Shown here: piece by piece, positions 4,230-5,699 of the stretch
Layout: the number at the start of each line of letters is the position of its first letter
Position numbering within the stretch: position 1 is the stretch's first letter
Assembly (NCBI GenBank): GCA_015234045.1
Contig: JADFWU010000065.1
Coordinates: 1-13,849, forward strand
Length of the DNA stretch: 13,849 nt
Direction of reading: 5' to 3'
Source of the DNA: Magnetococcales bacterium
Lineage (GTDB): Bacteria; Pseudomonadota; Magnetococcia; Magnetococcales; JADFWU01
Notes under the pieces: model-generated
Database searches by the model: none
The model's input: the letters and a program-made list of their open reading frames with translations, nothing else
What the model was told of the DNA's origin: nothing
Position numbers and translations under genes: made by a program

Positions 4230-5699
4230 TCAGAACACCGCACCCCAAATACCCGGTGTGACGATATTCTCATCCGATGCAGGCATATTATCAGCAATGG
4301 CATCATCGGTATCCACATCGGAGGAACCGGTCATTTCGACCTTATCACCCCAAAATGCACCTTTATGTTCACCTGAGCCGGTGATTTTCATCTCCGCATT
4401 CGGCGCATAAAAGGCACCGGTGAAATCTCCAGAGCCACTCATTTTCACTTCACCGCTGGATTTTGAGTAGACCATGAAATCAACAGGATTTCCGCCCTTG
4501 TGGATATCTCCACTACCTGAATGCTGAAATTCTCCAACCAGATAGAGCGTTACCGAAGCACCGCTTCCCAGCTTGATATCACCACTACCAGTATGCTTGA
4601 ACTCACCCTCAACAAAGATGATGTAATCACCACCTTCGAAAGTGAGATCTCCACTACCAGCCAACTTGAACGATGAGAAGTGGTAAGTGCCCGGTGTTGA
4701 CCATGTTACATCACTGGAGCCGGTTTTATTATACGCGCCTTGGTCATCTCCATCAGGCATCAGACCATTGATATAGCTGGACACACCAACAGGATCGCAA
4801 TCACTGCTGGAAGTGGTCGCTGTCTGATTGAGAAGGGTCTCACCGGTAACCTTATCGGAAAGATCGCCATCATCATTATCATTGTCATCGTTATCGTTGT
4901 CATTATCATGACCACCGCCGTGATGGTCATCATTGTCGTTGTCGTTGTCGTTATCGTCGTTGTCGTCGTTATCGTTGTCATTATCATGACCACCGCCGTG
5001 GTGGTCATCATTGTCGTTGTCGTTGTCGTTGTCGTTGTCGTTGTCGTTATCGTCGTTATCGTTATCGTCGTCGTCTTTACCAGCTATCCACAAATCACCA
5101 TAGATTTTATAGCCACTGCCTGACAGTGATGCCTCACCATCTGCACCGGTCAATGAGACGTTTCCTTTGACATGGCCTGAGCCAGAGATACTTAACGACC
5201 CTTCTTTGCCAACAATGCGCATATGGCCAGAATCTGTACCGCTTGCGCCGGTGTCCGAGTTATAGCTGTTAACCTTTCCTGAGCCTGTTCTTTTGATCTC
5301 TTTACAGGCGATAATTCCGGCAAACTGCCATTGGACACGTGGTGTATTGTTTGTAGACTCACACTTCACTTCTTGCGTTAGATTATGGATTACCTGACCA
5401 TTATTGCCATATACTTCAACCGCCATAATCAAATCTGTTGTACTGCCATTCTCAACAACAACAACCTTGTAGTTATCGTTTTGATAGGTCTGAGCCGTGC
5501 AATCGGTTTTCATTTTGAACATTACTGATTCCAGCGCAGACTCACCATCATAAAATGCCTGAACACTGTTTCGCGTTTCAGTGACTCGACTCGCGCCATC
5601 ATCAACCATATTGACCATGGCTGCACCAAAAGTTGCACCCACAATCAATACCATTGTGGCAAGGACAGCCATGCCCTGTTCGCCATATCGTCCGTTCAT
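4230..5699 (-). CDS. MshP/PilX-like pilin protein with GSG-repeat beta domain and Asp/Asn-HHGGGH insert
   Basis: 489 residues. Residues 1-60 look like a PilX/MshP N-terminus: EQGMAVLATMVLIV, a hydrophobic helix, then AFYDGESALESV. The classical G|FTLxE motif is absent, as in MshP/PilX. From about 137 on there are ten GSG or GSS motifs (139, 173, 194, 327, 348, 371, 395, 422, 441, 458), each followed by a short beta strand such as DLTFEG or DIKLGS, suggesting a solenoid-like fold. Residues 209-279 break this series with an Asp/Asn tract holding HHGGGH at 233-238 and 259-264. Cysteines are at 67, 113, 132 and 301. Normal MshP proteins are about 150 residues, so this one is very long. Start ATG overlaps the preceding stop (TAATG), with GAGGGA upstream. 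It is the last gene of the cluster, in the mshP position. A tip or surface-exposed adhesive role is inference. Confidence 0.8.
   Translation of the reverse strand: MNGRYGEQGMAVLATMVLIVGATFGAAMVNMVDDGASRVTETRNSVQAFYDGESALESVMFKMKTDCTAQTYQNDNYKVVVVENGSTTDLIMAVEVYGNNGQVIHNLTQEVKCESTNNTPRVQWQFAGIIACKEIKRTGSGKVNSYNSDTGASGTDSGHMRIVGKEGSLSISGSGHVKGNVSLTGADGEASLSGSGYKIYGDLWIAGKDDDDNDNDDNDNDNDNDNDNDNDDHHGGGHDNDNDNDDNDDNDNDNDNDDHHGGGHDNDNDNDDNDNDDGDLSDKVTGETLLNQTATTSSSDCDPVGVSSYINGLMPDGDDQGAYNKTGSSDVTWSTPGTYHFSSFKLAGSGDLTFEGGDYIIFVEGEFKHTGSGDIKLGSGASVTLYLVGEFQHSGSGDIHKGGNPVDFMVYSKSSGEVKMSGSGDFTGAFYAPNAEMKITGSGEHKGAFWGDKVEMTGSSDVDTDDAIADNMPASDENIVTPGIWGAVF
4863..5075 (-). repeat. In-frame Asp/Asn-coding low-complexity tract with 78-bp duplication and hexamer array
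   Basis: A 213-bp stretch codes 71 residues that are nearly all Asp or Asn, plus two HHGGGH motifs. A DNA segment of about 60 bp beginning at 4891 recurs at 4969 (78 bp apart) with one difference over most of its length. TTGTCG occurs six times in tandem at 5011-5046 on the plus strand. All units are multiples of three, so length changes keep the reading frame. Confidence 0.9.

Follow-up and report, generated by a model that had tools for sequence, protein, structure and literature searches.

A modular MshP-type pilin with a predicted beta-solenoid and an Asp/Asn-His tract in an MSHA-type operon of the Magnetococcales

What is the enlarged protein encoded at the mshP position of an MSHA-type pilin operon in a magnetotactic lineage, and what might the long Asp/Asn-His tract inside it do? 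The Magnetococcales are an order of magnetotactic cocci whose biology beyond magnetosomes is poorly known, and a limited search of open-access papers returned no description of their pili. The locus lies in a 13,849-nucleotide stretch of a Magnetococcales genome (contig JADFWU010000065.1 of assembly GCA_015234045.1; the whole stretch analysed is called the window below). Here an open reading frame of 489 codons on the minus strand runs from an ATG at 5699 to a stop at 4230 with no internal stop. It is the last gene of a pilin operon in the order mshA-C-D-O-P, and this order is kept in other Magnetococcales, where it adjoins mshI/J/L/E/G genes. The gene thus stands where an earlier, sequence-only reading of the window had put it, in the mshP position. 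The operon region contains the following features.

7750-8325, minus strand: membrane protein upstream of mshA, in the mshF position; found in the same place in relative G018 (31%, E 3e-19)
7247-7654, minus strand: mshA-like major pilin, 62% identical to one in G018
6610-7050, minus strand: mshC-like pilin (profile match and synteny)
6179-6607, minus strand: mshD-like pilin (profile match and synteny)
5699-6178, minus strand: mshO-like pilin, Glu5 present, 38-45% identity to its positional counterparts in four relatives
4230-5699, minus strand: gene in the mshP position, a modular pilin of 489 residues (MshP + DUF7305; open reading frame and synteny with relatives)
4172-4199, minus strand: hairpin with a T-run on either side, some 30 bases beyond the stop of the mshP-position gene; likely intrinsic terminator (read from the sequence)

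The four co-directional pilin genes upstream each encode a type III prepilin motif and Glu5. Because the hairpin follows so closely on the stop, it probably marks the end of the operon. Beyond it, the first gene (3517-4047) is PsiE-like. Three relatives (G007, G019 and G024) have the DUF7305 gene right beside the assembly genes. The genome studied here encodes four MshL-like secretins, one of which, on contig C117, scores above the MshL cut-off; a PilM-like protein precedes it, and an AAA protein, a TPR protein and the start of an MshE-like ATPase follow, which is the canonical MSHA order. This C117 copy is 42-46% identical to the MshL encoded beside the DUF7305 gene in G024 and G007, for which the alignments are longer, and 36% identical to the cut G019 gene, whereas the copy on contig C44 reaches 19-26% against the same proteins. 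As the relatives' MshL is nearer to the C117 copy, the window would supply the pilins and C117 the machine, on separate contigs. C44 itself carries a second MSHA-like assembly locus (8000-22000) with three MshM-like ATPases in a row, and matches to MshL-like secretins occur in all 48 Magnetococcales genomes, at 1 to 11 per genome. PilY1 (PF05567) gave no match in the same genome, in a search whose control was likewise silent.

Within the 489 residues the parts are arranged as follows.

5673-5699, minus strand: type III prepilin leader, residues 1-9 (MNGRYGEQG); the mature protein starts MAVLA, and position +5 is not Glu (sequence; +5 compared in all pilins)
5364-5672, minus strand: pilin body, residues 10-112, a predicted long helix and antiparallel sheet (AlphaFold; pseudopilin matches)
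5082-5315, minus strand: predicted beta-solenoid, part 1, residues 129-206 (AlphaFold model; structural alignment)
4869-5075, minus strand: Asp/Asn tract, residues 209-277, with two DHHGGGH motifs; predicted disordered (pLDDT mostly below 50)
4986-5003, minus strand: HHGGGH motif 1, residues 233-238 (sequence)
4908-4925, minus strand: HHGGGH motif 2, residues 259-264 (sequence)
4305-4838, minus strand: predicted beta-solenoid, part 2, residues 288-465 (AlphaFold model; structural alignment)
4290-4793, minus strand: DUF7305 (PF23981) match, residues 303-470, E 1.1e-24, 87.8 bits (Pfam profile; curated cut-off 27 bits)
4236-4259, minus strand: C-terminal strand, residues 481-488, low confidence, with an invariant Trp485 (alignment and AlphaFold)

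Canonical MshP occupies the same operon position and is short, with no extra domain: in gammaproteobacterial MSHA loci it has 147-194 residues, so the estimate of about three times the usual size was sound. A short single-domain pilin has about 150-190 residues, and given 489 residues and an additional solenoid we describe the protein as an MshP-derived modular pilin and not as a plain MshP. The Pfam model PilX_N does not match it at E up to 1; that model is a poor test here, as one of two short MshP proteins scored 20.2 bits (cut-off 25.5) and the other gave nothing. Eleven GSG or GSS motifs lie between residues 139 and 458, compared with a mean of 1.4 and a maximum of 7 in 5,000 shuffled versions of the protein. 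The enrichment noted from the sequence alone therefore stands, but the count had been put at ten and the spacing at 17-35 residues; the spacing is 7-34 except across the insert. The GSG domain proposed on that basis is present too, although as an existing Pfam family (DUF7305, E 1e-24) and not as a new one. DUF7305 is scattered: in this order 16 of 48 genomes carry it, and elsewhere in the phylum 22 of about 350 sampled genomes do; a limited search of the open-access literature returned no description of it. In other members of the phylum the domain is also borne by PilX-type proteins from ordinary pil clusters (G084, G341). A single-protein query against the genome contigs recovered no related loci, and an Rfam scan of the window gave no match.

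The AlphaFold model, which rests on eight sequences (the relatives) only, predicts a pilin helix and sheet followed by a beta-solenoid in two stretches (129-206 and 288-465), consistent with the solenoid suggested earlier. Confidence is high for most of the second stretch (pLDDT mostly 85-95), falls below 50 in the insert, and is low for the pilin helix and the C-terminal strand. In structural alignments the pilin body resembles type II secretion pseudopilins (Z 8.8 and 8.7), and the solenoid resembles DUF3494 ice-binding proteins (FfIBP, 4NU2; Z 18.2 over 204 residues, rmsd 2.9) and ComZ (Z 15.8 over 228 residues). A sequence search of solved structures found no relative, and the DUF3494 Pfam family had no match in the eight relatives scanned at E up to 1; the likeness to the ice-binding proteins is one of fold, and ice binding is not implied. 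A separate model of G024, the relative without an insert, can be aligned with ComZ over almost the entire chain (Z 16.1, 340 residues, rmsd 6.2), although this model draws on the same eight sequences and is not independent evidence. The G024 solenoid fold is also like that of the tapirins of Caldicellulosiruptor (6N2C and 6N2B; Z 15.1 and 13.9), which are separate secreted proteins and not pilins. Tapirins bind cellulose and are linked to type IV pilus loci.

On these models, the closest whole-protein relative is ComZ, a tip pilin of Thermus thermophilus (PDB 6QVI; PMC6561018), which has a pilin-like body, a large inserted solenoid of the ice-binding-protein type and a proposed tip location. 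The same build is predicted for the 489-residue protein, and, by analogy with ComZ, its C-terminal strand is a candidate for the final strand of the pilin sheet. Modular tip pilins are thus already known, and a fusion of MshP with DUF7305 would be a variant of that kind. The two proteins differ in locus (competence for ComZ, MSHA here), they share about 10-12% identity, and ComZ binds DNA; the passages of that source covered here mention no Asp/His-rich tract.

Where along the fibre would such a protein sit? Capping pilins such as GspK and PilX are marked by a missing Glu5. Mature residue 5 is Glu in MshA, MshC, MshD and MshO; none of the eight MshP relatives has Glu there, the residue being Ala, Gly, Val, Ile, Leu or Met, so that the N terminus is that of a PilX/GspK-like prepilin lacking Glu5. 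By this analogy the protein most likely caps the tip, and the earlier phrase 'exposed on the pilus' is right as to exposure and is better put as a probable position at the pilus tip. ComZ is likewise argued to be tip-located, its solenoid being judged unlikely to fit anywhere else in the fibre (PMC6561018). A second analogue is PilB of Streptococcus sanguinis (PMC8179133), which also carries a binding module on a small pilin part and is argued to act at the tip; that module, a vWA domain, has a defined MIDAS metal site, whereas here there is a solenoid with a disordered tract. A metal ion matters for PilB adhesion, which offers a precedent for metal-dependent tip pilins (PMC8179133). We consider the modular tip-pilin part of our explanation quite probable. 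The whole-length likeness of the G024 model to ComZ, which is reported to bind DNA (PMC6561018), could also suggest a DNA receptor for natural transformation. We regard this as improbable: the gene belongs to an MSHA operon and not to a competence locus, and a loop with a charge of about -35 should repel DNA, cation bridging being one possible way round this.

If a tip pilin of this kind has absorbed an extra domain, the question is what has become of MshQ. In gammaproteobacterial MSHA loci the short mshP gene is followed directly by mshQ, which encodes a separate protein of about 1100-1740 residues with a DUF6701 domain and often a laminin-G domain; the 489-residue protein has neither. DUF7305, laminin-G and DUF6701 are often combined in these MshQ proteins, and mshQ came directly after mshP in most of the loci that we read. 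All six MshQ proteins tested carry DUF6701, and in three of the six DUF7305 matches close to the N terminus, in one case weakly and below the cut-off; an N-terminal solenoid of the DUF7305 type is therefore present in some but not all and does not strictly define MshQ. A profile of seven MshQ N termini matched the solenoid of the Magnetococcales MshP with a probability of 95.6 (E 1e-8, 82 columns). A profile search for DUF6701 found it neither in the 489-residue protein nor elsewhere in its genome, in agreement with the earlier remark that no mshQ follows and answering the question of whether one lies elsewhere; across genomes it was found in 0 of the 20 Magnetococcales listed, this one included, against 19 of 249 sampled across the phylum. 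The proposal that the protein takes the place of MshQ is supported, and the presence of DUF7305 on some MshQ proteins strengthens it. Read most simply, the solenoid either moved onto MshP or became attached on two independent occasions. To call MshQ an adhesin, as the sequence-only reading did, goes beyond what is established, for MshQ is listed among MSHA components of unknown function, and its function, like that of the MSHA pilus tip, is open (PMC9815625). That MshP and an MshQ-type solenoid are naturally fused here suggests that the tip is where MshP and MshQ act jointly, and that what counts is the solenoid.

The tract itself has 69 residues, two fewer than first counted, and contains both of the HHGGGH motifs that had been described, starting at residues 233 and 259, 26 codons apart. 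It is strongly acidic, with a net charge of about -35. The reading frame is intact through its 207 bases and is the one in which the solenoid is encoded before and after it, so that the tract is no frameshift artefact. Although the assembly is fragmented (117 contigs) and such repeats can collapse or expand during assembly, this intact frame and the comparable tracts in other genomes make an assembly or gene-call artefact highly improbable; the exact length could still be wrong. An opposite-strand, Val/Ile-rich reading frame (4740-5123) is merely the antisense of the tract. A 78-bp tandem unit is present in 2.2 copies at 93%, and the second HHGGGH motif arose by its duplication. Among the 57 Asp/Asn codons of the tract the second base is A in every one and the third base is C in 37 and T in 20, unlike the Asp/Asn codons elsewhere in the gene, which prefer T (P 2e-6); this difference points to a probably separate, repeat-driven origin. 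A run of 12 Asp/Asn codons occurs only in this tract within its own genome and in 4 of the 48 genomes of the order.

The main rival to a functional reading is that a microsatellite in a surface loop has grown by slippage and the 78-bp duplication, tolerated by the solenoid, and that the resulting tract has no function of its own. The tandem unit with its repeat-like hexamers and the deviant codon usage both fit this reading, but the second codon position never varies, and a comparison of the two copies speaks against it: over codons -10 to +15 around HHGGGH there are, besides repeat-register shifts, five differences, and all five are synonymous. If all mutations were transitions, the chance of this would be about (1/3)^5, which suggests selection on the protein, although the sample is small. 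Phase variation was considered and rejected, as the repeat units are multiples of three and allow no frameshift switching.

Relatives bear on the same choice. Charged low-complexity tracts occur in eight DUF7305 proteins of the order (that of the genome studied here, called G000, and those of G001, G004, G007, G008, G018, G019 and G028), so orthologues do not lack the insert throughout. In the alignment, the tracts of G000 and G007 share one gap, those of G019 and G028 another, and that of G018 lies in a third; G007 has a second tract near its C terminus. In a tree built without the tracts, the six proteins from MSHA operons form a group (95/92) in which only G024 is without a tract, and the tree of all 17 proteins requires at least four gains or losses. 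A His-containing tract with HH pairs is found in five of the six members of the MSHA-operon clade, at no fewer than three sites of the solenoid, and the tracts of the other group (G001, G004, G008) are Lys/Asp/Gly-rich and have no HH. The main residues differ between relatives (DN, KDD, HG, HRD), as do sequence and position. This variation, with G024 lacking a tract altogether, implies that the tract is not essential to the fold, and it is also what neutral expansion would produce. The Asp, His, Lys and Gly composition common to tracts at different sites is harder to reconcile with neutrality, and so is their absence from neighbouring genes: an automatic count found a tract in 7 of 22 DUF7305 genes and in 0 of 134 neighbouring open reading frames (Fisher P 4e-7, an optimistic value, as the sequences are related; the count uses one automatic definition on reading frames of fetched loci, and the open-reading-frame filter removed G008). 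On balance we regard the functionless expansion as possible, if doubtful. Outside the order, none of 15 sampled DUF7305 proteins had a comparable tract; the two charged stretches of G251 are short and of ordinary sequence.

Two further proteins are of note as separate observations. The minus-strand DUF7305 protein of G004 (contig C3; L066:6315-8252) has three KDDG-type tracts, and a hydrophobic stretch ending in A(F/Y)AAG precedes two of them, as if a module had been inserted twice. In G011 (contig C9, around 58400), an SLH-domain-like, cytochrome-c-like secreted protein ends in a C-terminal run of about 40 Asp.

The tract may also have a role that involves no specific ion binding. It could be a hydrophilic spacer or brush that keeps the tip soluble and reduces pilus aggregation or non-specific contact. 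The predicted disorder and high charge are what such a brush would have, and a composition that varies freely yet stays hydrophilic is easier to explain by a bulk property than by a specific site. However, all five tract-bearing members of the MSHA clade have HH clusters, for which a mere brush has no need, and the tracts sit at loops of the solenoid and not between pilin and solenoid; we consider this reading rather unlikely. Cation or mineral binding is plausible from the composition of the tract, for which no metal-site geometry is predicted. We give ion binding about the same odds as neutral expansion and the hydrophilic brush combined.

The explanation that we favour is a modular minor pilin of an MSHA-type pilus with a solenoid at the tip and a cation-gathering loop, to which as a whole we assign a probability of about 0.5. 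The N-terminal, MshP-type pilin part would let the protein assemble into an MSHA-type type IV pilus, where, without Glu5, it would cap the fibre as GspK and PilX do. The C-terminal DUF7305 solenoid would, like that of ComZ, be displayed at the fibre end for binding. Elsewhere among MSHA systems the next gene product, MshQ, can carry a related solenoid, and here it would be fused to MshP, with MshQ missing. The disordered, acidic, His-containing loop of 69 residues that emerges from the solenoid would most likely concentrate cations at the tip, with Asp holding Ca, Mg or Fe/Mn and the His clusters holding transition metals. A loop loaded in this way could help the pilus to attach to cation-coated or mineral surfaces. 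More tentatively, the Magnetococcales MSHA tip may be a device for capturing or sensing metal ions or Fe/Mn minerals, in which an MshQ-type solenoid was fused to MshP and His/Asp loops were gained repeatedly, with composition and not position under selection. If His/Asp loops do bind ions or minerals, they would give magnetotactic cocci a surface organ with which to find or hold metal-rich particles.

Other features of the window lie away from the operon. At its start (2-775, minus strand) the contig end truncates a gene, leaving the stretch for the N terminus of its product; this shows weak matches to FecR and the BapA prefix and may belong to a large surface adhesin. A minus-strand cold-shock-like gene is flanked by a pair of direct repeats, each about 130 bases long (8449-8579 and 9340-9469; 88-92% identical, 890 apart); the first copy holds a 24-base imperfect inverted repeat, and the pair is MITE-like.
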